Assembly (NCBI GenBank): GCA_963924555.1
Contig: OZ004589.1
Span: 2,542,001 to 2,606,000, forward strand
Length of the DNA: 64,000 bases
Direction: 5' to 3'
Source of the DNA: Crambe crambe
Lineage: Eukaryota > Porifera > Demospongiae > Poecilosclerida > Crambeidae
The stretch's first letter is position 1. Every line of letters starts with the position of its first letter. The notes below the pieces were generated by a model. That model searched no databases and was not told where the DNA came from. It was given only the letters and a program-made list of their open reading frames with translations. This document shows, in pieces, positions 840 to 63,311 of this stretch. A program made the position numbers and the translations under genes.

Positions 840-3800
840 ATGAAGCTCCTTTTTCTAATACTGATGTTGGGATGGAATTACAGCTGTTATGGGCAAGGTA
901 CGTAAGGCTGATTATAACTAGATAGCTATTGACTATGGACTAGAATAGCTATAGACTATAACATGTGTCAGTCCCTCTAGCATTGTTATACCTAACTTTC
1001 TTGAACTTCTATCATGTAGCTATTTGCATAATGCTTATATTATAATTCAGCCCTATACGCTCAACTAGTAATCATGTATGGCTAATATGAGATCACGTTG
1101 ATTAAATTATTAAGAACATGATTATAGTATGCAGTTGATGATCTTTGTAGATGGAAAAGCATAGTGTGTAGTGACATGAACCTATTATTGTTGGCAAGCT
1201 TGTTTCATTAGCAATCACACATACGTAGCTATATTAGTAGAGTTGCTTATGTCCAATTTTTCACGAAATTATGCACTTCCGGACCAAAGCATCAAATTTT
1301 GCATGGACACTTAGTAGCTAAAGCATAATGAACCATTCTAGAAGGGGTGCCCTCATCTAGAGTGCTTGTGAGGAAAATTATGAAGGTATTTGTCTTTGAC
1401 AATTAATTTGCGATATGCGCAAAAAATTATATTTTCGCTCTTCATTCAAATTATATTATTGCGAAATTAAAATTCACAAAATTTTATCATGAGTCTGGTG
1501 GAACCTTTGGTATCACCTCAACATGTGGTTTTGTGCCTGCATTTTAGTACATGCTTGGTGGGACAATTGTTTTGTGATGGATTGGAGGTTTTGTGTGATC
1601 TGTGGTGGTGGAGGGAATCTAAAATGTCCTGCAAAAAGTAACCAAGGTAATGGTTTGGAAATATATAGCAGATTTTTTAGAACGTGGCACCCCTTCTGAA
1701 ATGCTTCAGTATGGTCTAAAGTATTACTGTGCAGAGTATGACATTAATTTTTGGTCCAGAAGTGCACAAAAAATGTAGTTAGCCACTACACTATAGCTAA
1801 TAGCTAGCTATACATAATAGATATAGCCTAACAAAAAATTTTTTTGTAATATTTTTGATGAAAGAATAATGCCATAACAGCTAGCTATAGATATAGCTAT
1901 ATATAGAGTCATGTATGTAACTTATGTCACTGCATGCATTATAGCTACATATCAAATATCTGTTTTAAAAAACAGTTCAGTTGTTATTATCACTGCACAC
2001 TAGCTGCATGAAAGTGCAGTGATGATAGCTTAGTAATCACATGCATTGTGTAGCCATGCACTGTATATCCTATAGAGATCACAAATTTTGTTGTTGTTTT
2101 TAGTTGGGAAAAATACCTATAGCTACCCCGATAAGAATACTTTATACAGAGATATGTAGTCATGCTTTTCTGTTTGTTGTACATTGATAAAAAAAAGATT
2201 ACACATGTGTAGCTACTCGTACTCGTTAATTTGTTAAAATCATGGAGACTATGCATTGGGCATGTGCTGCCCTAACATTTATGCACTATGCTTAAGTCAT
2301 GACTCATGCTTTCTACATGCACATGCAATGTGAATTCATGTGTTGACAAAAATTAATACTTTATAGATAATTTTTCCCAATTATGTAGCAAAAACATGTT
2401 TACTAGCTATAATTGAATTGTTGTGATCCTTATTATTGTCAACAATGCATGTGACTGTAGCTATATATGCATCACTGCATACTGATGCAATGTCATCATC
2501 GCATCAGTCATGCAATGCATTCCTCCTATGTAGAGTATAGTTAGCTATTATGGATTAAAGGGGTAGGAGACTCAGAGTGAGCTAGCTCATCAGTCATCAC
2601 AAGCCTGTGTGCAATCATTGTATGCATGAGAGGTAGCTATGCAGTTGCCAATGTACGTATGACTCAATCCATTTAGGAGAGCTTATACATAGCAGCTATT
2701 GGTACTGTATGCTTCTACACTGATAAAATTAAGCTAGAATAATATAAATAGCTAGTATGTATGTTCTGGGATTGTATTTATACTCCGATACAAATATACT
2801 GTCCTACATCATACACAAATTTGCTGAAAAGGTGATTTAGCTAGTTAGCTATTATTATCCATGGCAACGACTATGTTTTATTATGGCACTATTGTTCAGG
2901 TATCACCTTGGAGAGTGCAGCTAATGAATTTTTTGTAGGATTTTCTAAAAATGCTGATCCAAGTGTTTACGAATCTGTCTCACTCAAACTCTTCATAAGC
3001 ACACCAGAACTTAATCCTGTCAGCTTCACAGTAGTAGCCAGAGGATTTAACTTCAGTGGACTGGCTACAAGCAACTCAACAACCAAAGTGAACTTACCTT
3101 ATAAATTTCAAGTTCGATCAAATAATATCACCGAACGAAATAAAGGAATACGTATCAAAGCCGAAGGAGATAATAAACTCAGTGTATATGGTTACAATAC
3201 TTATATAGCAACAAGCGATGCATTCTTAGCCCTACCTTGCAATAGTCTTGCATTAAATGAATATGAATATTACGGGATAACATATCCTGATGGGAGAGCT
3301 TCATTCAGCAGTGACATTCTCATTGTAGGATGTGAAAATAACACAATAGTCACAACACCCTCGAGTACAATTGTGCTGAATCAATTTGAGACATACATAT
3401 TATCTACTTCTGATTCTACTGGTATGAGAGTCACCTCCACAAAGCCAGTGGCCTTTTTTAGCAATCAAGATTGTGTTAAAATATCTTCAAGTAGTAGAGC
3501 TTGTGACCACTTAACTGAACAAATGCCACCAACATCTACATGGGGTTCTTCCTTCTTTGTTGCCTCTTTTATGAATACAACCTCAGGAGATATCATCAGG
3601 ATCATAGCTGCTAAGAATTCTACCACTATCAATGTGAACTGTACGACATTTGCACAAGTGCAATATCTCTTAAATGCAGGAAATTGGAGAGAGTTGATAA
3701 TTCTACCTCAGAGTTTCTGTAATATCGAATCCTCTGCACCAATATTCATTGCTCAGTTTGCAGTTGGATCTACAACACGAACAATGAGTGATCCTTTCAT

Positions 3801-6800
3801 GATGATGATACCACCAGTAGAACAATACAGCAATAACTATGTCTTCAATTCCATATCTGGATATACAAATTACATCACTCTATATGTTGCTTCAAAGTAC
3901 TACCAACCAGGAAGAATTTTCATAGATGCTACAAGTCAAATAAATTCAGAGTGGACCACTCTGTATTGTTTCAACAGTAGTGATATCTGTGGATACATTA
4001 CTAGAGTAAGCTTGCCTGCTGGTGATCACAGAGTCTTTCATCAAGACACCAATGCAAGTGTTGGAGCATCTGTTTACGGATTCAGATCAGCTGATTCTTA
4101 TGGCTATCCTGCAGGACTGAAATCAACACAATGTGAGTGATTTAAGTCACTTATTATGTAGAAGTATTATAATATAATGGCAGCCTTTATGTTGAAAGGG
4201 TTCTTGCTTACATTTGTTGTTAGTAACTAGCTATTCATAAAATTTCTTGATTATGAAAATAACTAGCAATAATTTAACAAGGACAATTTCCAATTTATAG
4301 TATACACTGACTGTATGTTATTTACACAATAATTATTGTGGGCCTATAATTATGCTTATGGCGTTCCAAGTACTGTAATTATTGGAACGAGCCTAAGTGA
4401 GTAGTTAGTGAGTTGGCTCTGGAGTTTTTATTAACCTCTTGATGAGGTTGATATACATTAATTTTATCAAACTCAATTCCTAATCATATATCTAGTACAA
4501 AATAATAGCTTAACTATGAAAACCATGATCCAATTTCAACCCAATAATACAATTCACACTACCTGACAGTCTCATCTTGTTCATAATATAAGTAGTTGGA
4601 GTTGAAAATGTGCACTCGTTGCTATTATCCTCATTTCTTTACTTTTGAGTAGTCATTCCAATGTATTTTGCTTTTAATAAACTTAATAATTCCCTTTTCA
4701 TATAATTATAATTATTATGCTATAGCGAATGCATATAACATTGTGACCTGCCAGGGTTTCATTTAGGATTTTTCAGTATAGGGGGTGGGGAAGAATATCA
4801 GCATGCTTGCATGCATGCAGTTTTTCCTGGCCATGTCCACTTTTGCCTAACCACACCCTTTTTTTGGATATCAAACCATGGCCACTTGCCAAAAAATATT
4901 AATACAACCATTTTATAACTAGCAGCTACAATTGTTGACATGAGGCAGCTGGGATATAAAGCACTCTCTCTTTATGATTAATCAGCTGACATCATGCATA
5001 TGTGGTTATGTGATTGCCACAGCATAACGTCTAGGGGTGTTAATGAACATGTACAATAGTATAGGCACTTTCCTTATAAATATTGCTATGGAAATTTTAG
5101 TGGGGAAGCTGGGGAAGTTTCCCGCCAATAGATAGAACCCTGCCTGCATGGCAATGCTGATGTTTTCATCGAATGCAGTTGAATCAGTTTTTTTGTAAAC
5201 TGACATTTTTTTAGCTATTGTGATCACTATGATAATAATTATCATTATTATTATTATACTACAGTATTATGTCTATGTATATCTATAGCTAGCTATCTTA
5301 TTGGATTAATTAGAGAGTGCAGTAGCTCTCTCTATGTAGGGATGACCCTCACCCCTAAAAATATTTTTAAAGGCACACATCAATAACCACCGCATTTATT
5401 CATCTACGTATCCTACACCATAACAATGCTTAGTAGTTCATTCCAACACAGTACATTATAAATATCCATTCCTTGCTTCTTTTTTTCCCCCTTTCTTTCT
5501 ATTAGGTATTCATCCCTCTAACTCTTATTTCGCTTGACTTAAACAGATCAAACTACTCCCTAAATTGCATTAAAGTAGAACCTCTTAATAATGGACACAC
5601 TTAATTACTTTTTTGTAAAGAGGTTATGCACAAAGATGCATTATATTGTCCTTTGTTAAGAAGTTTGCTATAATTATAATTACGTATGATTGTAATTTTC
5701 TCTTTAGTTTTACCATCTTCGGCACAGATAACAGGAAGTCGCATAGTGGTTGAAAACAGTACACTAACTCTGAACTGTATAGTGAGAGCATACCCTACTC
5801 CAGAGATAGTGTGGTTGAAAAGAACAGAAGAGGCATTTGCTGCTATTCTTAACACCACCAGGATTTCCATTACCACAGTATACAGATCGAGCAATGCAAC
5901 AGCTTTTAGTTCTTTGCAGGTAATGGTGGTGGAAGCCAGTGACGAGGGAGAATACTTCTGTAAGGTGAATGAAGTCATGCCAACTAATATAACTTTTGCT
6001 TCTAGAAGGATTAGAATAAATGGTAAGATAATTACTGTATTGAAATATATATATATATTTAAATCTCACATCTAGTGTGTGGTTTGCAATTGCTTCACTT
6101 ACCTCGCTCCCTGAGTAGAATATCCTTTGTATAGCCAAATGAATGCAGTCCATAGAGGTCATTTTAGCTGTGATGTTAATTGTTTGTAGCATTCAATGCA
6201 TGTGCTGATGGAGAAAGATCTCCTTGTCTCAATGGAGGTGAATGCACAGATCTTGTGAGAGGGTTCACTTGCACATGCTCTGACAATTTCATTGGCCCTA
6301 CATGTGACAACAGAGGTATGTACGATGAATGCTATCCATACGTACTTCATTTCTGCAAGGATCATGACAATAATAATATACTAATTTCCATGGTGTTCAT
6401 GCAAACTGCTCCATGCAATTATTAAGTGAGATATCTTTAAAAAATATTTCAGTACCAATTACATTGCATTAAAAAAGTAATATTTTTCTGTTTCAGCAAA
6501 TCAAGAGAAACAAACTTCTCCTGTCATCCGGATACCACCAACTAGTGCTGATGTGGACCTGATTGCTCCTATTAACCTAACCTGCATAGCAGAAGGATCA
6601 CCAGCCCCAAGCTACCGCTGGTTCAAGGATGGGGTTCTGATCCCTGGAGAGAGGCAATCATTTCTCTACATTCAGGAAACCTTACCACAAGACAGAGGAA
6701 ATTATACCTGTGTGGTTACTAATGGGCAGGGGCAAACTGAATCTAATCCAGCAAAATTGGACATTCCAGGCAAGGCTAATCATTATAGCAGCTAATTACA

Positions 6801-9800
6801 ATGGTACGTACATATTAACACTGCATATCTTATTTTAGGAATTTATCAGTACAATGTCACTATACGATTGGAAGGTGAAAATGATCTTCAAGATGTGAGT
6901 GAAGTGAAGCTGTGAAGCTTTTTAAGTACCCTTTTTGCCCCATCTTCTAATTTAAAGGTTATGAGGCAATGGCTCTAGAAGGTAGTAGTATGTAGCTAGC
7001 TATATGAGTGGCTTCAGGTTTAATATAATTATTTAGTACTGTGTGATAATGATCTCAGGTACTGCTGAAGATAACAAGCTCAAATATCCCAAATACTGAA
7101 TTCAGTGTGTATGCTGTTAAAGTTCTCAATCAAATTAGGTCAGTATAATATTAGCTACCAACATTATGGTACCCCTATGTAGTTTAATTAATTATAACTA
7201 TATCTCTGTCTTAGCCTACGTACTCTGCAACATTCCTCTGCAATTGTAATCTCATTCAAAAAATTAATGTCAAAAGCAACTACATTGTTAATGTGTGCAT
7301 GCGTATACGGAAGGCATCATCCAATTATTGTACAACTGCATTAATTATACCCAATGTAGCACAAGATACAGAGAGAGGGACCTTCTAGTGACCATTCGAG
7401 AACTCTCACAAGGTCAAATAGTAACTGCAACCATAAGACAATCCCTGAGGGGACATCTACAGGCATTCTCATCAATCATGGTATTAGATATACAAAGATT
7501 TGGTGAGTTTATATTATTATACCCGTGGATCATACACTATGATATTGATAACTGTGATAGATGGATGCGAGGAAGTGAGGTTTGATGGCTATACTTGGCC
7601 TGAGACTGACTTGAGGGATTATGCCAGTGTCGAATGTCCTTGTGCTGAGTTTATAGGTTCTCTTGCTGGCAGGGTTTATAGGTACTGTAGTGGTAGCTAC
7701 TTGCATGGAGCATACTGGAGCAATGAAACTGACGAAAGTATATGTGTGGCTATCACGTCAGATATCACGAGAAATCTCTGTAAAGCAGCAAATGTAAGAT
7801 TTATAGTAGAAAAGTGATCCTTCATGTCATGAGTTGATTGCATATTTAAATGCATGCAGCAATTATAATCCCAAACTACATGCATGAGCATGCACACTTG
7901 TACATGAAATAAAAGTTAATAATGCATCTTTAATTATAGGATACAGCTAATCATGCTATTGAAGTCGCTCAGCGAGTTGCTAATATAACATACAATCCAG
8001 AGTATCTAAAAGCAGCAGATGTCTCAGCTACTTCATCTGTGATAACTCAGCTCACCAATGAAGCTATAACCAACCCCGCAGTAAGTACATGTAATCAGAA
8101 GGTGCATAATTTATTTTATGCATTATGTTTTAGGTGAGGAATGAGTATTTAGAAATCATTGATAATATACAGCAAGCAGATTCTGAAGAAGTCTTAATCA
8201 GTCAAAATGCCACAGGATCATCGCAGAGGTTTATCTCTATACTTATGTTGTATGCTTTTTATTTCCAAGGATAGTTTTAGCTACAGCTGTTAAACAATGA
8301 TGTATGTATTCTTATGCTACGTATAAGCTGCATTTGTATATTGCAGGATATTGGATAATCTGGCTATATTCACAGATTCTTTGGATCTCACTCTATTAAC
8401 CAATTCTTCCGTGGATAAATTTGTGTATGATACTTATGCTCTACAAATGCAGGATATAGATCCTGACACATTCAAAGGTCAAACATTCACAGTCAACTTG
8501 GGATCAGTGGAAGAAGCACTTAACTCAACTGAAGGCTTCAAGGATGAATCTCTCAAAATATCTGAAATGGATCTGGAAGTACCGGACAACTCAACAGCAG
8601 CTGTGCAAATACCGGAGAAGTTTATTGAAGAATGTCAAATGGAAAATACATCTAACCTTACTCAGCGATTGAGTTACAATGTTTTCATCACAGATGTTCT
8701 GTTTCAATCCTTAAAGGTTAACAGCACACTTGCCATTGGTTCGATTATTGTTTCCACAAGGTTGAATTGTAAAATGAACTCTTCACTTTCCACCCCTATC
8801 AGAGTTATATTCCGCACTAATGATAAGGTATGAATACTATAATTGCCCCGCTGCAGCACATGCACAGCAAGGGGTTAAGCAATCGGTTGGGATTCACTAT
8901 ATATACTTGCACAAAAAATTTTTAAGACCTCCAATAGGATTTTAGTCCTCAATTATAGTGGCTATGTTAGGTAAGGAAATATTCCTATAAAAAATTCTGC
9001 ATATAGAACCATCACAGTGTAAAATTTCTTTGCTAATAATTTATAATGTTACAGTAGTTAGCTACAGTATGCTTAATGAACCCTGGATGTGTGCTACCTT
9101 TTGGTTTAGGTAAAGGAAAGAGCAAGGAGTGGTAATTGTGCTATATGGGATCCAGAGTCTGATGGTACGTATGTCAAATCGTACATGAGAAGATCATTTT
9201 CCCCAATCTTGAGTTGTAACTAGCTAGCTATACATAGCTAACAGCTAATAGTATGCATGTCACTGGAATTATATGTAGCTATGTAAGTAGCCTCACAGGA
9301 TCCCGGAATAATTATGTATTTTGAAGGCATTGCTTGATAAGCATACTATGTCATTGTATGCAGATATGTTTGGCACATGGTCAACTTCTGGATGTAGGAA
9401 AGTGACAAGAGCTGGAAGTCAAACAGTTTACAAATATACACAGCTGGGCCATTTTGGAATACTCTTTGTAAGTTCATTATACTAACATCATCTGTCATTG
9501 GACATCATGTATACAGTAGCTATTTAACTTGTAGCTGTAAGCAGCACATGTGTTTACTATCCATACACAATATTTTTTTATTTGATAGGATCTCAATCCT
9601 CGTTCACTTCCACCTGATGCTGCTCTGGCATTATCTATCATCACTTACATAGGAATCATCATCTCACTCCCTTGTCTTGCAATACTCATTCTCACCTATG
9701 TTAGCTCTAAGTAAGTTTTTTTTTTTTAAATATCAAACAATATTGTGGGGAGCAATTAGCTACCCCAATCTAGGGTGTCATTGTTGTCTCTCTTTATAGC

Positions 9801-11372
9801 TAAACACTCAAAAGTTAATTAGTCCAGCCTCATTTAGTTCCCTCTAAGAATTATTATTGACACTGCATGCACCCCAATATTAAATTCATGTATAATACTT
9901 AATACTGTAATATGCATGACCATAGGAAACTAAGGAGCAGTACACATGGCCAAATTTTGATCCACATGAGTTCATCTTTGTCTGGTCTCTACATTTCCTT
10001 TTTGGTTGGAGGTCATGTGACAACCATTCCAGTCCTTTGCGGGGTCACTGCTGCCTTGCTTCATTACTTCATACTAGTTTTCTTTGCCTGGACGGCAGTG
10101 GAGGCAGTCTGGCTTTACATTAAACTGGTTAAGATCATTGGGACGCAGTCTCTTGAAAAGAAATTCATAATTAAGGCAGGAATTCCAGCATGGGGTAAGT
10201 TGAAGATACATAGAGTCATGTTATCATCCTATTCAGATACATGTACTAAAGTCGAGTCAATTCTTAACCAAATTTCAAAATTAATTTCAAATACAAGCAG
10301 AGAGAGTGAATAATCAGCTCTCTGTTGAGAAAGTTTTAGCAGTTATAGTGAATGATCGAGGGGCAAGGTGAATGCAAGTAGACTTTAGCTAGCTATGAAC
10401 ATTACAAATGAAAATGATCAGTGTACGGTCAATGTTTAGTTGTTGTAGGTGTTTAATAATTCGAATTTAAATAATGATACATGATCCCACATGCTGGTTA
10501 AAGTTTGTGCTGTATATATCGTCAATAGCTATATGTCTTAGACTCAATCTGTTCTGCTATTCAAGCAGCCAAGCAATGAGCTCTGTCTAAACTATAAAAA
10601 TGAAAGCTTCCCGCTATTTGGTATACCATTGGCTGTATGATTCATGTTCTCTCTTTTGCAGTTCTTCCACTTCTGATAGTTATGCTGAGTGCTGGTCTAG
10701 GATATCGCTATTATATCAGCGAATTTTAGTAAGCTTTTTTCATAATCATTGCAATACTAATTAATTACGTATCATGACATTTTCTGCAGTTGTCGAACAA
10801 CTCAGTGGCCTTTCTGGTTTGGATTCTTGCTCCCATTCGTGTTGCTGTATATCTTTGACTGGATCATGTTCATTATTATACTTGTGTCCATCATGAAACA
10901 CAAACGCAGTGCTCAAACCAAAGGAGAAAAGAGGAATTTCAAGAACTACAAAGAAAACTTTGTCATTGTACTCTCACTTTCAGTCGTGTTTGGTCTTGGA
11001 TGGGGCTTCGGTTTGCTGGTCACAAGCATTCCAGAATTGGGAGTAACCATCACCTTTCAAGTTTTTTTCTCCGTTTTAGTTGGTGCTCAAGGAGCTCTGC
11101 TCTTTATTCTCCATGGTATTCGAAATGGCGATGCACGAGATTTGTGGAAGCAATGTTGCTTTAAGAGAAAGAGGATTTTCTCCAGTAAGAGCACTATCAA
11201 GTCATCAAATGAGACAAGTACATCAAATGCAGTACCTCAAAATGTACCTCAAAAAGCTGATCTCTCAAAGAAAAACAAATGTGCCTTTTTCCAGAAAAAG
11301 GAAGGAAGTGAAGCTAAAGTGAATATCCATACTTACGAGGATATGTCATTTGGACAAATTAATAGCTACTGA
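840..11372 (+). CDS. Adhesion-type GPCR with IgGFc-binding-like N-terminus (copy 1, 18 exons)
   Basis: Exons: 840-897, 2900-4132, 5708-6022, 6190-6315, 6497-6769, 6839-6894, 7059-7138, 7360-7502, 7561-7793, 7940-8080, 8134-8228, 8347-8827, 9110-9164, 9364-9467, 9589-9710, 9926-10194, 10662-10728, 10790-11372; 1477 residues. Order: signal peptide (1-19); IgGFc-binding-like domain (20-430); Ig (431-535); six-Cys EGF (536-577); Ig (578-668); SEA-like segment (669-761, tentative); HRM with CEEVRFDGYTWPET and CPC (762-839); GAIN; GPS (Cys1088, Cys1107); 7TM from ~1140 with FFAWTAVEAVWLY in TM3 and GLGWGFG in TM6; Ser/Lys-rich tail. The start is fixed by a hydrophobic leader exon of the same size in the paralogue. 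Oddities: the GPS reads QLG where a cleavable one reads HL(T/S), its second Cys pair is Tyr1119/Tyr1121, and intron 5 starts with GC. Expected role is a surface receptor for an unknown ligand. Boundaries are confident; the 7360 acceptor is the weakest. Confidence 0.85.
5310..5345 (-). repeat. 3' hairpin terminus of a rolling-circle-like repeat
   Basis: Read on the minus strand, CATCCCTACATAGAGAGAG leads into a short hairpin of AGAGAG-type arms and ends CTCTCTAA, followed by T. The same terminus occurs at the ends of the composite repeat blocks and near 38762 and 43575. The far end of this element inside the GPCR intron is not clear. Confidence 0.45.
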
Positions 11373-12315
11373 ACAAGCAAATGTTGCAATCAATAGTTTT
11401 ACGTATGTAGTGAGATATTAGTTATTGAACTTGTTAGCTAGCTATTTGACTCAGTGGTCTGACTCAGTTTGTAATTATTGTTTAGCTAATGTTTTCCCTT
11501 TCACATCAGCTTTAGCTATAGTAGTTATATCGTGTGATTTTACACTAATTATGTCTGATATATCTGACACCATTGCTTAAACAAATGATTATGTGTGTAT
11601 TAGCGTTCCGCATGAGCAGAAGATTTTAACAATCACTAATTCGATAAACACCTACATTACCTATATAGCTAACTATCCCGACTTCAAATGACAACGGGCC
11701 ATATAATGTGGGATGCTCAACAGGACCACATAAAAGGGGAGCAAACTTAAGGATAAAGATAGTGATTGATTAAGTCTACCATTCACTAGGATATTTTTAT
11801 TATACTTTGTATCTATATACATCCAAGTGCACATCCACTATAGGCAACTTAGATTGCTAACATGATGCAGGTGTCATAGCTACAGTAGATAGCTACTGCT
11901 AGAGTTATTAAGTTATGTCTGCATGCAATAACTATACCACATGAACAACAACCAGGGTTTATTTCAAGGGGGCTTCTGCCCCCCTCCCCTACGAATTAGT
12001 TATAGCTTTTATAATGAGATTATCATAGAATTCTGCATAGCTACATGTACTGGTTTGCAGTTTCCCTTAATTTTTTTCACTAGGCATTTAACCCCCTCGA
12101 GCGAAATTCTGAATTAAACCCTGTGAAGGAAAAAAAAAAAAAAAATGGGTTCAGTATTATTTTATTATAGGCAACTGGATGCTCCTGCTATCCAAGTTGA
12201 AGTTAGCTATGTAGTTCAATGGAGGTTTCATCATATTGTATGAACTGAAATGAATCTGATCTGGAAGTACTAATGCTATCTATAAGATTATCAATTTTAT
12301 ATAGGCTTTTACTGA
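11373..12315. other. 3' flank of copy 1, arm of the inverted duplication
   Basis: No gene is visible. The first ~230 bases match, in inverse orientation, the sequence after the stop codon of the minus-strand paralogue (18590-18797), so both 3'UTR/flanks were duplicated with the genes. Weaker inverse similarity continues (TCCAAGTGCACATCC near 11821 against 17950-17965). A run of about 20 A lies near 12127. Confidence 0.6.
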
Positions 12316-12762
12316 CAAGTGAATGCAAAAAATTTCTTCGAAATAAAAATGTGAAGTAGGGATGCTATTATAACTGCAGCTTCATTATGAAAACCAAGTA
12401 CTGCAGCATCGAAGCAGTATGGCCCAAAAATCTAGCTGGAATATGTATTATAACTGCATGCAAGAGAGTGAACTTAGTGAAGTGACCCTTACCCATCATC
12501 AAGTACAAGATACTATTCCTACTTCACTCCCATGATCAAGGGCCAAGGGAGTGAAGTAGGAATAGTATCTTGTACTTGATGATGGGTAAGGGTCACTTCA
12601 CTAAGTTCACTCTCTTGCATGCAGTTATAATACATATTCCAGCTAGATTTTTGGGCCATACTGCTTCGATGCTGCAGTACTTGGTTTTCATAATGAAGCT
12701 GCAGTTATAATAGCATCCCTACTTCACATTTTTATTTCGAAGAAATTTTTTGCATTCACTTG
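12316..12762. repeat. Long palindrome at head of repeat unit A
   Basis: The left arm starts CAAGTGAATGCAAAAAATTT and the right arm ends with its reverse complement. Arms are about 215 bases, centred near 12539 (CCCATGATCAAGGGCCAAGGG). Equivalent palindromes head the other three units. Confidence 0.85.
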
Positions 12763-13214
12763 TTTGCATTCTTTTTCTTTGTGATTATGAAAATTGATAG
12801 ACACTAAAGGCTTCCTTGATTGAACTAAATTTATTTAATGATCAGTATTTCATTCTGTTCAGGGATTTGAAGGATGATCATCTGCAGTGTAATGGAGTAC
12901 TGAAAGGAGTGAACATTTTAAAAAGTGAACATGCATTAGCTAATTGTTACATATGTGATCACTGAAATAATTATTGAGATGGTACGTATGTCTTGCTTGA
13001 GGGAGGAGTATGGGGAGTTTATGCATTTGGTGTAGTGATCATAATAGTGGATGTCATCAAATGGCCACATCCTGTGCAGGTGTTATATGAGGAGAACTGC
13101 TATTAATTGCCCCACCCCTTTTATGAGGTAATATCACGAAGATTTTTTTTCATACGAGGCTGCAGCACATTATAGATAGCCCAGCTAGATTTTAGGCTAT
13201 CCCTACTTAACCTT

Positions 13215-13558
13215 GAAATTTTTTACGCTCACTTGTTTCTATCCTTTTTCTTAGTGCTTGAAGTTGAATGAGGGAGGCTATAGTACAGTACTATACAAAG
13301 CCAGCTCTACATAAACCTCTTTTGTAGGTACATACAGTGTCTCTGGTTGAAGAATTTGTTTAGCTATTTAAGTTTTGTTGATATAAGAAATTTTTTACGC
13401 TCACTTGTTTCTATCCTTTTTCTTAGTGCTTGAAGTTGAATGAGGGAGGCTACAGTACAGTACTATACAAAGCCAGCTCTACATAAACCTCTTTTGTAGG
13501 TACATACAGTGTCTCTGGTTGAAGAATTTGTTTAGCTATTTAAGTTTTGTTGATATAA
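13215..13558. repeat. 172-bp tandem duplication private to unit A
   Basis: The stretch from GAAATTTTTTACGCTCACTT at 13215 is repeated at 13387 with almost no change. Units B, C and D carry only one copy, so this duplication happened in unit A after the units separated. Confidence 0.8.
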
Positions 13559-30027: not shown

Positions 30028-36713
<6,686 letters not shown>

Positions 36714-48557: not shown

Positions 48558-48588
<31 letters not shown>

Positions 48589-51500
48589 ACACACACACTC
48601 AACTGTGCTCACAGTTGAAGTAGCAATATCCTCAGAGAGTGTATTGCTACATATAGCTAGTATACCTGGTGTTAATTTCACACAGGTTCCTGGAGCGCAG
48701 CCATTTTTTACGGTAATAAATGGCATTTTATTGATGTGAAGCTTAATCATAACTAGCTACATGCACAGAATGCAATTATTGTGCTATTTAATCCCAAAAT
48801 TTTATCCTGACCAGTATAAAGCATGACAACACATTTCTGTATCAGGGTAGTTGTTTTTCCGAACTAAAACAAAGAAAAACATATTTACTGCATGCATTCA
48901 ATTGCATTCAATGGTTGTGATCAGTATTATGGCATAGAGTATAGCTACAATGCATATGATTGTAGCAAGCTAGCTAGCTTATATCACTGCATGAATGCTG
49001 ATGTTATTGAATCATAACAAAACTGTATAAAACTAACAATCATGTTATAGTAATACATAGCTCAGTGACATGACTACAATAGATGTGACTAACCTGTAAT
49101 TTATTTATGTATGTAGCTCGCTATAGCTTAATTATTACACTATTAGCTAATGGCTATTGTTTTTCTCATCATAAAAAACTAGATTATAATAATTTAATCT
49201 CATTCCATAGCTCTATAATCTGGAGAACTATGACTGTAAACTATAGATATGTAGCTATTATGGGCAGAATGAGGTTACAATTATGATTTCTACACAGTAA
49301 ATTTAAACAAAGAAAAAGCTAGGATTGCATGTAGTTACTATATTATTATTATGGCAAGTGGTATATGGCGGGTATCACTGAAACAATGGTATCTTGCACT
49401 GCACTCTAGCTTGCTAGGGGTGCATGCATGGCCTCTGAACATAACCAATCCATCTCCCCGGATCTGGGGTAACCAGCTATGTAGCAGAATGATTCCTGGG
49501 GATATTAATGTTTTGTGTGATAAAAGAATCCCTTTCTCAAGTGGCCAATCAAAAAGTTATGGTAATAGCTAATCATGTTTTATTATGGCACTATTATTCA
49601 GAAATCATTTTGGAGAGTGCAGCTAATGAATTGTTTGTAGGATTTTCTAAAAATGCTGAGCCACATCATTACCAAGGTTCCTCCCTCAAACTCTTCATAA
49701 GTACACCAGAACTTGATCCTGTCAGGTTCACAGTAGTAGCCAGAGGATTTCACTTCAATGGACTGGCTACAAGCAACTCAACAACGGAAGTGAACTTACC
49801 TTATACATTTCAAGTTCGATCAAATGAACAGTATAAAGGAATACACATCAAAGCTGAGGGAGAAAATAAACTCAATGTGTATGGTTACAATGGAAACAGT
49901 GCAGAATCGAGTGATGCATTCTTAGCCTTACCTTGCAGTAATCTTGCAGTAAATGATTATGAATATTACGGGATAACATATCCTGAAGAGCGATCATCAT
50001 TTACAAGTGATATTCTCATTGTAGGATGTGAAAATAACACAGTAGTCACTACACCCTCAAGTACAATTGTGCTGAATCAATTTGAAACATACATATATTC
50101 TACTTCTGATTCTACTGGTATGAGAATCACCTCCACAAAGCCTGTGGCCTTTTTTAGCAACCAAAATTGTGTTGACATACCTTCAAGCAGCGGACCTTGT
50201 GACCACTTAACTGAACAGATACCACCCACATCTACTTGGGGTTCTTCCTTCTTTGTTGCCTCCCTTATGAGTACAACCTCAGAAGATATCATCAGGATCA
50301 TAGCTGCTAAAAATTCTACCACTATTAATGTGAACTGTACAACATTCACACAAGTACGAGTATACTCTCTCTTGGATGCAGGGAATTGGACAGAGTTGAT
50401 GATTCCACCTCACAGCTTCTGCAATATTGAATCCTCTGCACCAATATTCATTGCTCAGTTTGCAGTTGGACCTACAACACTAACAGAGAGTGATCCTTTC
50501 ATGATGATGATACCACCAGTAGAACAATACAGCAATAACTATGTCTTCAATTCCATATCTGGATATACAAATTACATCACTTTATACGTTGCTTCAAAGT
50601 ACTACCAACCAGGAAGAATTTTCATAGATGCTACAAGTCAAATAAATTCTGTGTGGACCACTCTGTATTGTTTCAACAGTAGTGATATATGCGGATACAT
50701 CACTAGAGTAAGCTTGCCTGCTGGTGATCACAGAGTCTTTCATCAAGATGTCAATGCAAGTGTTGGAGCATCTGTTTATGGATTCAAACCTTTTGATTCT
50801 TATGGCTATCCTGCAGGACTAAAATTAGCACAAAGTGAGCGGATATTTTGTATGCTTGCGAGGTACTGGACTTATTATATGTACGTATAGGATGCAATGC
50901 ATGGCTCAAATAATATGCACAAGTTGTCATGTAGCTATAATAGCTACGTACCTACCTACTAGAGTAATAGAGTAATGTTTTCAACTACATGTGTGCAGTG
51001 ATTACTGAAACAGAGACCACTGTGCCAGAGACCACTGCAATAGAGACTGCTGTGCCAGAGGCCACCACTGAGCAAGTGACTATACTTTTAGGTGCAGTTT
51101 TAAAGAAGACAGTAATTTTTTTTAAACACATTCATGAGTCCCAACAGGCCAGCAAATATTGCAGTTACAATATAGCTACCATGAATTCTGTTTATGATTT
51201 TAGATTTATTTTAGTTACTGTACGTATAGCTATTGCTTTTAATATTAAAATAAATTTGCATACCATCCTCCCTTTTATAGAGATAAGGTGTATATGCAGC
51301 TAAGTACGTATGTACATACGTATATAGCTACGTAGCTGCAATAATACTGATCAATTCTCCATCCCATGCAGATAAAGTATTATTTCAGCTTCGATTGAGC
51401 AGTGTTTCTGACTGTATTCAGTGGAGAGAAATCAACCCACTCCCCAAACTCAGAGATGTCACTGACACAGTGGTCCAAGTAACAGAACAAACCTGTGGGT

Positions 51501-52290
51501 GTGGTTTCACATCATCCAACATTTTGGAGGAAAGATTTGTATGTTTCACTCCTCAGTCTCCACATCATGTGACATACAGGGCACGAATCAATAGGACATC
51601 ACAAGCTACAACAGGACAACTAGTGACCTTCATTCAGCAATGGTTGATGACTAGTCGATCCATCCTCATTCAAGGTGTGCAACTCAACATTGACAGAACA
51701 TGTGACTTTGTGATTTCTACATTTGACAATGTGGAATGTTCTGAACTGTCGGATGCTGTAACTCTTGTCACAGAAGCAAATATGAGTGATAATGTTGTAG
51801 CTACTACTATTGGCTGTACAGCAGCAGCAGTGGTGCTGGTTATAATCATCGGATTTGTTATCTTCATTATCATATGGAAAAGATCAGTAAAGTAAGTTCA
51901 GCAACCTACAATGTAACTCATTTGGCTACACTATACTCTCGGAAACATGTATGGGGATATTCAAACTATACAATTATCGAGTGAGCTGGTACATCATTCA
52001 CATGCATGCACATGCTATAAAATAATATGGTGCTTATTACTTAAATTTATAGCTATAATCATTGTAGGAAAAAAACACAGTCACCAATAGAAATGAATGC
52101 TACCAGTTGTGACATTACTGCAAATCAAGCCTATGGTGTAGTGTCAACTAAATTGTTTGATGACACTGGTGGAGTGTATGAAGAGATCCTATCTCAGGAA
52201 AGCAAGTTACCCTCTACTAAACAGAGAAACTATGAGAGTCCTTCTCATCCAGTGCAGCCCAACACTCAGAGGGCAGAGAAACAGATTTAG
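47939..52290 (+). CDS. Single-pass receptor: IgGFc-binding-like domain, short stalk, TM, tyrosine tail (second tandem gene, 5 exons)
   Basis: Exons: 47939-47999, 49602-50834, 50999-51091, 51372-51891, 52068-52290; 709 residues. Signal peptide MKIFLILIIGWN (1-20); IgGFc-like domain (21-431); 31-residue stalk; Cys-containing membrane-proximal domain with a TM near its end (463-635); 74-residue tail. The tail has YGVV and YEEI, but the residue matching Tyr804 of the previous gene is Phe (KLFDD), so ITAM spacing is lost. A third Tyr sits in RNYESP. The frame upstream of 49602 is also open to an ATG at 49508, but that stretch is unspliced intron with no leader, so I prefer the spliced start. 49317 onward is duplicated at 59921 onward. 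Confidence 0.78.
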
Positions 52291-54640: not shown

Positions 54641-54647
54641 ATAAAAC

Positions 54648-54845: not shown

Positions 54846-55212
54846 TAATAGCTAGCTAAGAGAGCTTAGCTATAATCATTCCCATCTCATTAGTACATAC
54901 GTAGGGTGGTGTTTTACCAGACATTCAATCTCTAGCCAATCTGATTCCAGAGTGCCAGTCGGTTAATACGTATACTGTTCTGGTCTGCGAAACCATTGTT
55001 TTGTGAGGTGTTTTTTTTTTTTTATTACAGCAGTTTTCACAACTTGGCTTAAAGATAAAAACCAGTAATGCACATGCCATCAAGTCACTACTGCACATGT
55101 GCTACACATATATAGTATTGACAATGAGGTAAAGCTTCTGACTGAGCATGTGCAGTGCATGCAGTGCAAGCTAAAGTGTGTGATTGGAAAAGAATGGAGC
55201 TCCTTATTCTAA

Positions 55213-55667
55213 CAAGTGAATGCAAAAAATTTCTTCGAAATAAAAATGTGAAGTAGGGATGCTATTATAACTGCATGCAGCTTCATTATGAAAACCAAGT
55301 ACTGCAGCATCGAAGCAGTATGGCCCGAAAATCTAGCTGGAATATGTATTATAACTGCATGCAAGAGAGTGAACTTAGTGAAGTGACCCTTACCCATCAT
55401 CAAGTACAAGATACTATTCCTACTTCACTCCCATGATCAAGGGCCAAGGGAGTGAAGTAGGAATAGTATCTCGTACTTGATGATGGGTAAGGGTCACTTC
55501 ACTAAGTTCACTCTCTTGCATGCAGTTATAATACATATTCCAGCTAGATTTTTGGGCCATACTGCTTCGATGCTGCAGTACTTGGTTTTCATAATGAAGC
55601 TGCATGCAGTTATAATAGCATCCCTACTTCACATTTTTATTTCGAAGAAATTTTTTGCATTCACTTG
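55213..55667. repeat. Long palindrome at head of unit C
   Basis: Same ~450 bp palindrome as at 12316, with an extra CATG in both arms (GCATGCAGC), showing that the arms change together. Confidence 0.85.
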
Positions 55668-56712
55668 TTTGCATTCTTTTTCTTTGTGATTATGAAAATT
55701 GATAGACACTAAAGGCTTCCTTGATTGAACTAAATTTATTTAATGATCAGTATTTCATTCTGTTCAGGGAGGAGAGTTTGAAGGATGATCATCTGCAGTG
55801 TAATGGAGTACTGAAAGGAGTGAACATTTTAAAAAGTGAACAGCATTAGCTAATTGTTACATATGTGATCACTGAAATAATTATTGAGATGGTACGTATG
55901 TCTTGCTTGAGGGAGGAGTATGGGGAGTTTATGCATTTGGTGTAGTGATCATAATAGTGGATGCCATCAAATGGCCACATCCTGTGCAGGTGTTATATGA
56001 GGAGAACTGCTATTAATTGCCCCACCCCTTTTATGAGGTAATATCGCGAAGATTTTTTTCATACGAGGCTGCAGCACATTATAGATAGCCCAGCTAGATT
56101 TTAGGCTATCCCTACTTAACCTTTTTATTTTTTACGCTCACTTGTTTCTATCCTTTTTCTTAGTGCTTGAAGTTGAATGAGGGAGGCTACAGTACAGTAC
56201 TATACAAAGCCAGCTCTACATAAACCTCTTTTGTAGGTACATACAGTGTCTCTGGTTGAAGAATTTGTTTAGCTATTTAAGTTTTGTTGATATAAAACTT
56301 TACAGCAACAGCAATGTAAATGACATGTACACGGCATGGTGAAGTGAGCTGACTACACTACAGCCAAGTACTGGCTATAATGCTACTATAGGATGAGCAT
56401 CTGTACTGTAATTCAGCAAGGAGTGACTGGAACATCATCAGATAATGAATGAAGACCTTGGCTATAGCTAAACTTGAGCTTACGTGGCTCCGCCCATAAG
56501 CCCCGCCCCCTTCAAAATGGCGTAGAAAGATTAGCAGCTGTGTTCCGAGTGCTATCGAATAGTGAAGTAGAGCCTTAGTCAAAACTAATAGCAAAAGATC
56601 AGCCTCTAGGTGCCGCTCTAACAGATGGCCAAAGCAGAATTTTGATGACTATAGCCAGTAAGTCGGTACGTCGATCTTATTATTATTATTATTATCCTTA
56701 TTATTATTATTA

Positions 56713-57159
56713 CAAGTGAATGCAAAAAATTTCTTCGAAATAAAAATGTGAAGTAGGGATGCTATTATAACTGCAGCTTCATTATGAAAACCAAGTACTG
56801 CAGCATCGAAGCAGTATGGCCCAAAAATCGAGCTGGAATATGTATTATAACTGCATGCGAGAGAGTGAACTTAGTGAAGTGACCCTTACCCATCATCAAG
56901 TACGAGATACTATTCCTACTTCACTCCCTTGGCCCTTGATCATGGGAGTGAAGTAGGAATAGTATCTTGTACTTGATGATGGGTAAGGGTCACTTCACTA
57001 AGTTCACTCTCTTGCATGCAGTTATAATACATATTCCAGCTAGATTTTTGGGCCATACTGCTTCGATGCTGCAGTACTTGGTTTTCATAATGAAGCTGCA
57101 GTTATAATAGCATCCCTACTTCACATTTTTATTTCGAAGAAATTTTTTGCATTCACTTG
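56713..57159. repeat. Long palindrome at head of unit D
   Basis: Same palindrome, with the centre in the same orientation as unit B. Confidence 0.85.
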
Positions 57160-58203
57160 TTTGCATTCTTTTTCTTTGTGATTATGAAAATTGATAGACA
57201 CTAAAGGCTTCCTTGATTGAACTAAATTTATTTAATGATCAGTATTTCATTCTGTTCAGGGAGGAGAGTTTGAAGGATGATCATCTGCAGTGTAATGGAG
57301 TACTGAAAGGAGTGAACATTTTAAAAAGTGAACAGCATTAGCTAATTGTTACATATGTGATCACTGAAATAATTATTGAGATGGTACGTATGTCTTGCTT
57401 GAGGGAGGAGTATGGGGAGTTTATGCATTTGGTGTAGTGATCATAATAGTGGATGCCATCAAATGGCCACATCCTGTGCAGGTGTTATATGAGGAGAACT
57501 GCTATTAATTGCCCCACCCCTTTTATGAGGTAATATCGCGAAGATTTTTTTCATACGAGGCTGCAGCACATTATAGATAGCCCAGCTAGATTTTAGGCTA
57601 TCCCTACTTAACCTTTTTATTTTTTACGCTCACTTGTTTCTATCCTTTTTCTTAGTGCTTGAAGTTGAATGAGAGAGGCTACAGTACAGTACTATACAAA
57701 GCCAGCTCTACATAAACCTCTTTTGTAGGTACATACAGTGTCTCTGGTTGAAGAATTTGTTTAGCTATTTAAGTTTTGTTGATATAAAACTTTACAGCAA
57801 CAGCAATGTAAATGACATGTACACGGCATGGTGAAGTGAGCTGACTACACTACAGCAAAGTACTGGCTATAATGCTACTATAGGATGAGCATCTGTACTG
57901 TAATTCAGCAAGGAGTGACTGGAACATCATCAGATAATGAATGAAGACCTTGGCTATAGCTAAACTTGAGCTTACGTGGCTCCGCCCATAAGCCCCGCCC
58001 CCTTCAAAATGGCGTAGAAAGATTAGCAGCTGTGTTCCGAGTGCTATCGAATAGTGAAGTAGAGCCTTAGTCAAAACTAATAGCAAAAGATCAGCCTCTA
58101 GGTGCCGCTCTAACAGATGGCCAAAGCAGAATTTTGATGACTATAGCCAGTAAGTCGGTACGTCGATCTTATTATTATTATTATCCTTATTATTATTATT
58201 ATT

Positions 58204-59378
58204 ATAAAGAAAAAGAACGAAAAGTCAATTTTAGAACTCGTTTTTTTCTTATGTTGGCAAATGAATTTTTGGCTTTTGAACATTCTCCTCTCTTCTTTGT
58301 AGATATAATAATTCACTGTAGCCTTCTGAGAACCTGTAGAGTAAGGGTAGAAGAGAAAGAAGAGTTTTTAGTTTATACTGTCCTATGGACTTTGACCTGC
58401 CATCCCTACTTAGAGAGTGCTACCGCACTCTCTGATTATAAAGAAAAAGAACGAAAAGTCAATTTTAGAACTCGTTTTTTTCTTATGTTGGCGAATGAAT
58501 TTTTGGCTTTTGAACATTCTCCTCTCTTCTTTGTAGATATAATAATTCACTGTAGCCTTCTGAGAACCTGTAGAGTAAGGGTAGAAGAGAAAGAAGAGTT
58601 TTTAGTTTATACTGTCCTATGGACTTTGACCTGCCATCCCTACTTAGAGAGTGCTACCGCACTCTCTGATTATTATAAAGAAATTGAACAAAAGTCAATT
58701 TTAGACATCGTTTTTTTCTTATGTTAGCGAATGAATTTTCGGTTTTTGAACATTCTCCTCTCTTCTTGGTAGATGCAATAATTCACTATAGCCTTCTGAG
58801 AACCTGTAGAGTAAGGGTAGAAGAGAAAGAAGAGTTTTTAGTTTATACAGTCTTATGACCTTTGACCCGCCATCCCTACTTAGAGAGTGCTAGCGCACTC
58901 TCTGATTATTATTATAAAGAAAAAGAACGAAAAGTCAATTTTAGAACTCGTTTTTTTCTTATGTTGGCGAATGAATTTTTGGCTTTTGAACATTCTCCTC
59001 TCTTCTTTGTAGATATAATAATTCACTGTAGCCTTCTGAGAACCTGTAGAGTAAGGGTAGAAGAGAAAGAAGAGTTTTTAGTTTATACTGCCCTATGGAC
59101 TTTGACCTGCCATCCCTACTTAGAGAGTGCTACCGCACTCTCTGATAAAGAAAAAGAACGAAAAGTCAATTTTAGAACTCGTTTTTTTTTCTTATGTTGG
59201 CGAATGAATTTTTGGCTTTTGAACATTCTCCTCTCTTCTTTGTAGATGTAATAATTCACTGTAGCCTTCTGAGAACCTGTAGAGTAAGGGTAGAAGAGAA
59301 AGAAGAGTTTTTAGTTTATACTGTCCTATGGACTTTGACCTGCCATCCCTACTTAGAGAGTGCTACCGCACTCTCTGA
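58204..59378 (+). repeat. Five tandem ~235 bp units with 3' hairpins
   Basis: Units end at 58435, 58669, 58905, 59145 and 59378, each with the hairpin and CTCTCTGA. The third unit is the most diverged. Confidence 0.88.
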
Positions 59379-59988
59379 TACTGATACTAGGATGGAATAG
59401 CAGCAGTCATGGTCAAGGTTTGGATGGCTATATAGCTATAGCTAGTATATTAACTATTATTCCAACATCATTTTAGGCCACCTCTCATACTCTAGCTCTC
59501 CAGACCAAGATTTCTATTAGCCTCTTCTAAGCATGTTATTTGATAAACAGCTAGCTAACTAAATTAAAAGTTTAAATGTTGGGACTATTTTGTGCATGAC
59601 TGTATTGTATAGCTACACATAATTATTATTAGCTAACAGCAGTATACAAAGATTTGGGTCTGGGGGGACATATGTTCTAAATGATGTATAAATTGCATAT
59701 AGTATAGCTAAAATAAATGTTACAAAAACAATGCATGACTTGAATAATGATGTTGTAAAACATTAAATGATGTGTAGCAATAATTTTAGTTAACAACCTA
59801 ATTCTCAAGTCATAACTCAGTGTATTATAGGTCTACACTCCCAAATATCCAAAGCATACACATAATATGCATCTTGATGTCATGTCAGTAGCTATCTCTT
59901 TCTATTGGAAGTACAATACCAAAGCTAGGATTGCATGTAGTTACTATATTATGGTAAGTGGTATGTGGCGGGTATCACTGAAACAATG

Positions 59989-60609: not shown

Positions 60610-63311
60610 AAATCATCTTGGAGAGTGCAGCTAATGAATTGTTTGTGGGATTTTCTAAAAATGCTGAGCCAAGTGCTTACGAATCTGTCTCACTCAAACT
60701 CTTCATAAGTACACCAGAACTTGATCCTGTCAGGTTCACAGTAGTAGCCAGAGGATTTCACTTCAATGGACTGGCTACAAGCAACTCAACAACGGAAGTG
60801 AATTTGCCTTATACATTTCAAGTTCGATCAAATGACATCACTGAACAGTATAAAGGAATACACATCAAAGCTGAGGGAGAAAATAAACTCAATGTGTACG
60901 GTTACAATAGTAACAGTGCATTAACGAGTGATGCATTCTTAGCCTTACCTTGCAGTAATCTTGCAGTAAATGATTATGAATATTACGGGATAACATATCC
61001 TGAAGAGCGATCATCATTTACAAGTGATATTCTCATTGTAGGATGTGAAAATAACACAGTAGTCACTACACCCTCAAGTACTATTGTGCTGAATCAATTT
61101 GAAACGTACATAATTATTTCTTCTGATACTACTGGTATTAGAATCACCTCCACAAAGCCTGTGGCCCTTTTTAGCAACCAAAATTGTGTTGACATACCTT
61201 CAAGCAGTGGATCATGTGACCACTTAACTGAACAGATACCACCCACATCTACTTGGGGTTCTTCCTTCTTTGTTGCCTCCCTTATGAGTACAACCTCAGA
61301 AGATATCATCAGGATCATAGCTGCTAAGAATTCTACAACTATCAATGTGAACTGTACGACATTCACACAAGTACGAGTATACTCTCTCTTGGATGCAGGG
61401 AATTGGACAGAGTTGATGATTCCACCTCACAGCTTCTGCAATATCGAATCCTCTGCACCAATATTCATTGCTCAGTTTGCAGTTGGACCTACAACACTAA
61501 CAGAGAGTGATCCTTTCATGATGATGATACCACCAGTAGAACAATACAGCAATAATTATGTTTTCAATTCCATATCTGGATATACAAATTACATCACTTT
61601 ATACGTTGCTTCAAAGTACTACCAACCAGGAAGAATTTTCATAGATGCTACAAGTCAAATAAATTCTGTGTGGACCACTCTGTATTGTTTCAACAGTAGT
61701 GATATATGCGGATACATCACTAGAGTAAGCTTGCCTGCTGGTGATCACAGAGTCTTTCATCAAGATGCCAATGCAAGTGTTGGAGCATCTGTTTATGGAT
61801 TCAGACGTTTAGATTCTTATGGCTATCCTGCAGGACTAAAATTAGCACAAAGTGAGTGGATATTTTGTATGCTTGCGAGGTACTGGACTTATTATATGTA
61901 CGTATAGGATGCAATGCATGGCTCAAATAATATGCACAAGTTGTCATGTAGATATAATAGCTACCTACCTACCTACTAGAGTAATAGAGTAATGTTTTCA
62001 ACTACATGTGTGCAGTGATTACTGTAACAGAGACCACTGTGCCAGAGACCACTGCAATAGAGACTGCTGTGCCAGAGGCCACCACTGAGCAAGTGACTAT
62101 ACTTTTAGGTGCAGTTTTAAAGAAGACAGTAATTTTTTTAAACACATTCATGAGTCCCAACAGGCCAGCAAATATTGCAGTTACAATATAGCTACCATGA
62201 ATTCTGTTTATGATTTTAGATTTATTTTAGTTACTGTACGTATTAGCTATAGCTTTTAATATTAAAATAAATTTGCATACCATCCTCCCTTTTATAGAGA
62301 TAAGGTGTATATGCAGCTACGTACGTATGTACATACGTATATAGCTACGTAGCTGCAATAATACTGATCAATTCTCCATCCCATGCAGATAAAGTATTAT
62401 TTCAGCTTCGATTGAGCAGTGTTTCTGACTGTATTCAGTGGAGAGAAATCAACCCACTCCCCAAACTCAGAGATGTCACTGACACAATGGTCCAAGTAAC
62501 AGAACAAGCCTGTGGGTGTGGTTTCACATCATCCAACATTTTGGAGGAAAGATTTGTATGTTTCACTCCTCAGTCTCCACATCATGTGACATACAGGGCA
62601 CGAATCAATAGGACATCACAAGCTACAACAGGACAACTAGTGACCTTCATTCAGCAATGGTTGATGACTAGTCGATCCATCCTCATTCAAGGTGTGCAAC
62701 TCAACATTGACAGAACATGTGACTTTGTGATTTCTACATTTGACAATGTGGAATGTTCTGAACTGTCGGATGCTGTAACTCTTGTCACAGAAGCAAAGAT
62801 GAGTGATAATGTTGTAGCTACTACTATTGGCTGTACAGCAGCAGCAGTGGTGCTGGTTATAATCATCGGATTTGTTATCTTCATTATCATATGGAAAAGA
62901 TCAGTAAAGTAAGTTCAGCAACCTACAATGTAACTCATTTGGCTACACTATACTCTCGGAAACATGTATGGGGATATTCAAACTATACAATTATCGAGTG
63001 AGCTGGTACATCATTCACATGCATGCACATGCTATAAAATAATATGGTGCTTATTACGTACTTAAATTTATAACTATAATCATTGTAGCAAAAAAACACA
63101 GTCACCAATAGAAATGAATGCTACCAGTTGTGACATTACTGCAAATCAAGCCTATGGTGTAGTGTCAACTAAATTGTTTGATGACACTGGTGGAGCGTAT
63201 GAAGAGATCCTATCTCAGGAAAGCAAGTTACCCTCTACTAAACAGAGAAACTATGAGAGTCCTTCTCATCCAGTGCAGCCCAACACTCAGAGGGCAGAGA
63301 AACAGATTTAG
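60610..63311 (+). CDS. Single-pass receptor, third tandem gene (ectodomain, TM and tail exons)
   Basis: Exons: 60610-61851, 62016-62108, 62389-62908, 63089-63311. They give the IgGFc-like domain, a 31-residue stalk, the Cys-containing membrane-proximal domain with TM, and a tail with YGVV, KLFDD and YEEI, as in the second tandem gene. Phases are identical to that gene. The normal first exon is split by a repeat block, so the gene is either silent or uses another leader. An ATG at 60516 is in frame through the unspliced intron end but gives no obvious signal peptide. The N-terminal part (SAYESVSLKL) resembles GPCR copy 1 rather than its sister gene. Status: gene body intact, 5' end disrupted. 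Confidence 0.72.

Follow-up and report, generated by a model that had tools for sequence, protein, structure and literature searches.

How can one recognition module come to serve two kinds of receptor with different outputs? The question is raised by a stretch of 64,000 nucleotides (C12:2542001-2606000, the whole of which is called the window), in which exons encoding the IgGFc_binding domain (Pfam PF17517) occur both in adhesion G-protein-coupled receptor (GPCR) genes and in single-pass (SP) genes that encode a stalk, a SEA-like domain, a transmembrane helix and a tyrosine-bearing tail. We consider it probable, with moderate confidence, that the window holds a cluster of paired receptors with a GPCR as one arm, which was formed by fusion and in which the shared exon was then exchanged.

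The same exon is found on two receptor chassis

The genome searched comprised 143 Mb in 119 contigs. Five PF17517 exons lie within the window, in GPCR1 (2900-4132, plus strand), GPCR2 (26264-27508, minus strand), SP3 (44207-45442, plus strand), SP4 (49602-50834, plus strand) and SP5 (60610-61851, plus strand). All five are stop-free, 1233 to 1245 nt long (411 to 415 codons), and bounded by an acceptor ending in ttcag and a donor beginning with gtgag, with phase 1 at both ends. The E-values of the five in the genome search ranged from 8.4e-50 to 7.1e-54, and hmmscan on four of them gave 1.5e-51 to 1.5e-55; chance is excluded as the source of these matches. Two further copies, one of each chassis kind, flank the window (C12:2520327 and C12:2610173) and belong to the genes named GPCR0 and SP6. 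C12 therefore carries seven copies (three GPCR, four SP), all on one contig of 7.6 Mb, with similar ectodomains on GPCR and SP chassis less than about 100 kb apart. A preliminary description had reported five genes sharing this exon in the same 1-1 phase, and this was confirmed by the domain matches and the splice sites. Its wording "nearly identical" was too strong for the degree of sharing, since the seven copies (21 pairs) are 81.1 to 95.3% identical in protein and 86.9 to 96.4% in DNA.

The body of the two GPCR genes, described beforehand as that of an adhesion GPCR, indeed consists of Ig-EGF-Ig-HRM-like-GAIN-GPS-seven-transmembrane exons. In Pfam, the joined GPCR1 model matched IgGFc_binding (E 9.6e-54), two Ig domains, EGF (E 5.4e-5), GPS (E 1.1e-6) and 7tm_2 (E 5.3e-26), with HRM below threshold and no match to VWD; it thus has both the 7tm_2 bundle and the GPS-bearing extracellular region that define adhesion GPCRs. 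Several exon boundaries of this model were placed by eye. All 15 of its chassis exon pieces were recovered by tblastn in GPCR2 and in GPCR0, without stops where aligned. Self-cleaving GPS sites carry the triad HL|T or HL|S. With QL|G in place of HL|T, none of the three C12 GPCRs would be expected to cleave itself. Adhesion GPCRs without cleavage are known, so their membership of this class stands despite QL|G; among Amphimedon adhesion GPCRs, 12 of 40 are described as having no GPS (Krishnan et al., PMC4302439).

The SP genes share a layout of signal exon, IgGFc_binding exon, Thr/Glu/Pro-rich stalk exon (phase 1-1), a single exon for the SEA-like domain and one transmembrane helix (phase 1-2), and a short tail exon. 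The SEA-like domain, of about 120 residues and bearing Cys, was named by eye; Pfam SEA gave no match at E up to 10 in any of the four SP chassis exons. SP3, SP4 and SP5 have the tail motif YE[E/D]I; in SP6 it lies on an open piece apart from the rest, and it recurs in a relative on C10 around which PF17517 has no match within 1 Mb. Three stalk-transmembrane-tyrosine-tail genes had been announced for the window, and all three are there, with the correction that the signal-like exon of SP5 has no ATG. Beyond that account, SP6 was seen to carry an in-frame TGA in its chassis exon (L021 about 5850-5900) next to an open IgGFc_binding exon, and GPCR2 to have an extra stalk exon.

Tracts of the exon have probably moved between chassis

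An ectodomain tree was built from 23 of the 51 PF17517 stretches found genome-wide, namely those with long open frames. The seven C12 copies formed one clade (100/100), and constraining the GPCR copies to group together was rejected (approximately unbiased test, p 0.00097), showing that ectodomain relationships on C12 are independent of chassis. Trees of the separate thirds of the exon gave conflicting starred groupings. In a shared-run permutation test (2000 shuffles, 21 pairs), the global p was 0.0005 for each of GPCR0-SP5, GPCR1-SP3 and GPCR1-GPCR2, 0.003 for GPCR1-SP6, and 0.0075 for GPCR0-SP4.

In two of these pairs, exon tracts on different chassis are identical. GPCR1 and SP3 differ at 0 of 84 aligned sites across a variable loop, compared to 108 of 1137 elsewhere; the 84 sites of this tract show 17 differences between GPCR1 and GPCR2. 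GPCR0 and SP5 differ at 0 of 157 sites, compared to 123 of 1029 outside the tract and its margins. SP4, the sister of SP5, has just 4 differences from GPCR0 within this tract of 157 sites, so that the exchange may be older than the split of SP4 and SP5. Our own implementation of a test of the pairwise homoplasy index (PHI) type gave p 0.0005 over the C12 copies, and the same on third codon positions alone. Exchange of the ectodomain between receptor types, a mark of paired receptors, is thus found on C12.

A relic in an SP3 intron points to a fusion

Shortly after the mucin-like stalk exon that SP3 and GPCR2 have in common, an SP3 intron contains a relic (46284-46474, plus strand) made up of the end of the preceding GPCR intron and roughly the opening third of the GPCR Ig1 exon. 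The matching Ig1 exon is intact in the three GPCRs, whereas the relic has lost its acceptor AG and has an in-frame stop, and its homology breaks off in the middle of the Ig domain at about position 46474. SP3 and GPCR2 are homologous from the IgGFc_binding exon across the next intron and the stalk exon as far as the beginning of Ig1. On the other side, the SP chassis becomes homologous to its C10 relative no more than about 40 bp 5' of the SEA-like exon. Because homology of one type ends inside Ig1 and that of the other starts near the SEA-like exon, the simplest reading would be a fossil fusion breakpoint, joining a GPCR2-like 5' half to the 3' half of another family. The SP kind seems to derive from the GPCR kind. 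Relic and intron homology stand independently of any gene model.

Both chassis also occur without the module. The SP chassis exon has at least 90 matches in the genome, SP genes included (100 candidates scored); those at C10 2454311 and C8 4061851 have no PF17517 match within 900 kb. The nearest relative of the GPCR chassis, on C8, has Ig1-EGF-Ig2-HRM-like-GAIN-seven-transmembrane exons and no PF17517 match within 400 kb. Because this relative has no PF17517 nearby, the exon must either have been acquired on C12 by GPCRs of this clade or have disappeared on C8.

A second cluster on C13 repeats the arrangement

On the minus strand of C13, an IgGFc exon (3516225-3515320) leads into NIDO, VWD, an EGF array, two Ig domains, and HRM-like, GAIN and seven-transmembrane exons; the HRM-like match is weak and the seven-transmembrane part ends near 3489.7 kb. 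The EGF array (3508110-3502081) shows matches every 170 to 180 bases, with gaps of about 0.55 kb and about 0.25 kb. A transmembrane-like stretch at 3515130, 3' of the IgGFc exon, has a stop just before it in its frame. Judged from the parts read as letters (all but 3495001-3501349 and 3504051-3507000), the IgGFc exon and the seven-transmembrane exons are likely one gene. Downstream, IgGFc-EGF units lead to a transmembrane-like stretch at 3483944 and a SEA-like/transmembrane exon at 3468372-3468839, so that the cluster extends over 3468372-3516225. A model of all single-pass-side copies as one gene was dropped because of the stretch at 3483944.

The GPCR-side copy is 80 to 84% identical in protein to five nearby copies and 27% to the C12 module. 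The exchange test on C13 used six of the seven copies, omitting U3462 (58.5 to 60.3% protein identity to the others), and a PHI-type test over the six gave p 0.004. IgGFc exons on GPCR genes (a likely one on C13) and on single-pass genes were therefore seen twice, on C12 and C13, with very different modules, and cross-chassis exchange once.

Weighing paired receptors against other explanations

Several observations weigh against a paired-receptor cluster formed by fusion and exchange. The main caveat is that the assembly may have joined similar paralogs into chimeras, which would mimic shared tracts. In the final third of the exon, 36% of bootstrap trees split by chassis, so that such a split was not excluded there, and on C13 the test for exchange involving the GPCR copy was negative (global p 0.22 for its best pair). 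IgGFc exons adjoin SEA-like/transmembrane exons on C18 and C13 too, so the combination is not unique to the C12 event. Two of the four SP genes, SP5 without its ATG and SP6 with its TGA, may be damaged. The pattern of the immunoreceptor tyrosine-based activation motif is YxxL/I-x6-8-YxxL/I, and as an explanation of the tails of all SP genes it was rejected, since SP3 fits (YDDI-x6-YEEI) while SP4, SP5 and the C10 relative do not. Finally, across the 21 pairs and in bins of 52 codons there was no sign of positive or diversifying selection on the C12 exon, because the ratio of nonsynonymous to synonymous substitution (dN/dS) was 0.30 to 0.44 in every pair and no bin mean exceeded 0.44 (lowest 0.07, at codons 313-364). 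Purifying selection of this kind would speak more for a conserved ligand bound in common than for an arms race.

The reading given in the preliminary description, which saw here the organisation of paired receptors in immune and allorecognition loci, is upheld in part: one ectodomain on two chassis in one cluster is supported, with the relic and the cross-chassis exchange in addition, while the allorecognition role finds no support in these ratios. The presence of an IgGFc module is by itself not a sign of kin recognition, because the module is common (51 stretches) and adjoins at least five kinds of exon sets. The paired-sensor reading is one of anatomy and exchange, not of function.

The strongest alternative is neutral. 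A promiscuous 1-1 module would have been copied to a second chassis by tandem duplication and fusion and homogenised by conversion without functional pairing, the SP genes being drifting or decaying by-products. The commonness of the module beside many kinds of exon, the damaged look of SP5 and SP6, the absence of diversifying selection, and the repeat arrays flanking the genes would all be as this account has it. However, SP3 and SP4 look intact, with open frames and splice sites in their IgGFc, stalk, SEA-like/transmembrane and tail exons and with ATG-bearing signal exons; dN/dS well below 1 speaks for constraint on the ectodomain; and on C13 a very different module is arranged in the same fashion. 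We regard neutral shuffling and concerted evolution as possible, if unlikely.

Less probable still is that the two kinds of protein are adhesion partners, binding each other or the C10 IgGFc module homophilically as receptor and ligand or scaffold. In the tree of 23, the closest outgroups of the C12 module include C10 copies, which lie in a region with a Calx-beta cluster, at least one of them (L039) standing just before Calx-beta exons on the same strand, and sponge adhesion GPCRs have been suggested to bind single-pass partners (Krishnan et al., PMC4302439). Structure prediction did not help this idea: the models were of low confidence and yielded no usable fold (mean predicted local distance difference test score 38.8 for the IgGFc exon and, in an AlphaFold2 model, 45.0 for the SEA-like/transmembrane exon). 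A search of PDB sequences with the IgGFc exon returned three weak matches (best E 0.28) that were taken as chance. An artefact, that is, wrong exon models or a mis-assembled paralog array feigning a shared exon, might be suspected from exon models drawn from genomic DNA and from the chimera-prone similarity of SP4 and SP5 (96.7% over 3.6 kb), but is very improbable in view of seven separate IgGFc exons on one contig, five of them each with its own splice sites and chassis, of a relic and intron homology that need no gene model, and of the similar arrangement in the second cluster.

For the paired-receptor cluster that we favour, the following course of events can be proposed. The adhesion-GPCR family (IgGFc-[stalk]-Ig-EGF-Ig-HRM-like-GAIN-seven-transmembrane) would have arisen first. 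A GPCR2-like 5' half, comprising signal, IgGFc, mucin stalk and part of an Ig exon, would then have fused, near a phase-1 splice acceptor, to the SEA-like/transmembrane/tyrosine-tail exons of a different, large receptor family, and the resulting single-pass genes would have duplicated. Gene conversion or unequal exchange may have moved IgGFc tracts across chassis, giving a common pool of ectodomain variants, so that both receptor types would bind the same or overlapping ligands. The GPCR arm would signal via its seven-transmembrane region, probably without self-cleavage at the GPS, and the SP arm would recruit SH2 proteins to its YxxI sites; YEEI is a preferred ligand of Src-family SH2 domains. 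A single ligand could in this manner feed two pathways, one by way of G proteins and one by way of phosphotyrosine; candidate ligands are microbes, matrix proteins and other sponge cells.

We also entertain, as a doubtful extension, that such receptors have interchangeable front halves, the module being kept matched by conversion on GPCRs and tyrosine-tailed receptors so that one cue is heard in two signalling languages. This would have arisen at least twice (C12 and C13), and, if the Calx-beta cluster around the relatives on C10 encodes matrix proteins resembling aggregation factors, ligand and receptors could share the module in self-recognition.

Comparison with known receptor systems

Most known paired receptors are single-pass proteins of the vertebrate immune system. 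Like the C12 genes, the pairs Siglec-11/Siglec-16 and CEACAM1/CEACAM3 are paralogs with similar ectodomains and different signalling parts; both members of the Siglec and CEACAM pairs are single-pass Ig receptors, whereas on C12 one arm is a seven-transmembrane GPCR, and a shared ligand, co-expression and opposite outputs would be putative. EMR2, CD97 and EMR3 are all adhesion GPCRs of the EGF-TM7 type, in contrast to C12, where exchange reaches a single-pass receptor. FCGBP shares the PF17517 domain with the C12 genes, but is a secreted mucin-like protein in which IgGFc_binding is followed by VWD repeats. The C12 genes encode membrane receptors, without VWD in the GPCR1 model and with a transmembrane helix in the SP genes, and so do not belong to the FCGBP type; on C13, NIDO and VWD exons come after one IgGFc exon. 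Hydractinia Alr and Botryllus fuhc are, like C12, cell-surface receptor loci of colonial invertebrates. Alr is defined by extreme allelic polymorphism and genetics, and the same is reported for fuhc (PMC12065747); the C12 comparison covered one assembly, with dN/dS among paralogs below 0.45.

Ectodomain similarity of Siglec-11 and Siglec-16 is attributed to gene conversion (PMC5701461, PMC5112662), and for EMR2, CD97 and EMR3 concerted evolution through gene conversion has been reported, with EMR2 as a chimera (PMC2720389, citing Kwakkenbos 2006). The adhesion GPCRs of Amphimedon combine 7tm_2 with HRM or SRCR, have shuffled N-terminal domains and in some cases no GPS (PMC4302439); the term "IgGFc" has 0 occurrences in that paper, and a single-pass twin is not described in its accessible passages. 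For Halichondria panicea receptor models, a figure legend lists IgGFc-binding among "other domains" (PMC8242945), and the accessible text states neither the receptor class concerned nor, in contrast to C12, any cluster, shared module or pairing. In the accessible literature (including PMC4302439, PMC6208332, PMC8242945, PMC2720389, PMC5450542 and PMC12716839) a GPCR/single-pass pair was not found, a weak negative as most subscription journals lie outside this coverage.

On C12 a GPCR is paired with a tyrosine-tailed receptor, and if the animal is a sponge, as its gene content suggests, this pairing exists where adaptive immunity is absent. The relic would show how one receptor kind came from the other, and the exchange would keep their recognition parts alike. 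The locus is a natural experiment with one sensor wired to two outputs. It offers concrete, clonable candidates for the long-open question of surface recognition in sponges and, even without kin recognition, a readable stepwise case in which phase-1 exon shuffling turned a GPCR into a receptor of the single-pass kind.

Anatomy of the individual genes

GPCR1 (plus strand) starts with a signal-peptide exon (840-897, MKLLFLILMLGWNYSCYG) that ends in phase 1. After the IgGFc_binding exon come Ig1 (5708-6022) and EGF (6190-6315), both in phase 1-1, Ig2 (6497-6769; 3' end placed by eye, GC donor), and the HRM-like exon (7561-7793), whose 5' end is not fixed and whose Pfam HRM match (E 0.018) is under the cut-off. 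The GAIN region (7940-8827) occupies three exons (7940-8080, 8134-8235 and 8347-8827), the GPS exons span 9113-9467, with the QL|G that replaces HL|T noted at 9363-9467, and the seven-transmembrane exons and C-terminal tail span 9589-11372. GPCR2 (minus strand) has its signal-peptide exon at 28509-28562, a mucin-like stalk exon in phase 1-1, homologous to the SP stalk exons, at 25950-26102, and its Ig1-EGF-Ig2-HRM-like-GAIN-GPS-seven-transmembrane exons at 18804-25612. A stalk exon like this one was not seen in GPCR0 or GPCR1. The C-terminal tail of GPCR0 is shorter than those of GPCR1 and GPCR2, with a TGA at L018 about 8380-8400.

The SP genes of the window are all on the plus strand. SP3 has a signal-peptide exon (40397-40453), a Thr/Glu/Pro-rich stalk exon in phase 1-1 (45594-46076), a SEA-like and transmembrane exon in phase 1-2 (46777-47314), and a cytoplasmic tail exon (47448-47592) with YDVL and YDDI-x6-YEEI. 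In SP4 the corresponding exons are at 47939-47989 (signal peptide), 50999-51091 (short stalk, phase 1-1), 51372-51891 (SEA-like and transmembrane, phase 1-2) and 52068-52290 (tail, YGVV ... VYEEI). SP5 has signal-like sequence without in-frame ATG at 59375-59413, overlapping the end of a repeat copy (59130-59394), followed by a short stalk exon in phase 1-1 (62016-62108), a SEA-like and transmembrane exon in phase 1-2 (62389-62908), and a tail exon with AYEEI (63089-63311).

The module elsewhere and the neighbouring repeats

On C18 (L027 2700-7826), IgGFc, SRCR, Ig, SEA-like and transmembrane exons stand in a row, a diverged relative of the SP architecture, and IgGFc exons adjoin EGF or Ig arrays on C1 and C13. 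C10 holds 21 of the 51 PF17517 stretches at 5.7-6.4 Mb, overlapping a large Calx-beta cluster at 5.69-6.58 Mb (among the best 150 of 1021 candidates). Sponge aggregation factors have Calx-beta domains, and the C10 cluster possibly encodes genes like these, which we take as a lead only. An exon beside one C10 copy (L037), first taken as VWD-like, had no Pfam match and was set aside. A scan of bacterial and archaeal genomes confirmed no occurrence of the module.

Two blocks of near-identical repeats, with inverted arms and tandem units, lie about 43 kb apart in the window, at 12315-15934 and 55187-59394; the second overlaps the start of the SP5 signal-like exon. Inverted arms at 12315-12763 are 220 nt long, 100% identical and 9 nt apart. 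A frame of the repeat unit also occurs beside the C8 GPCR (L040 5040-5426). By eye, reverse-transcriptase-like or other retroelement-like frames were seen near receptor genes at window positions 3-584 (minus strand) and at L041 1-1500.

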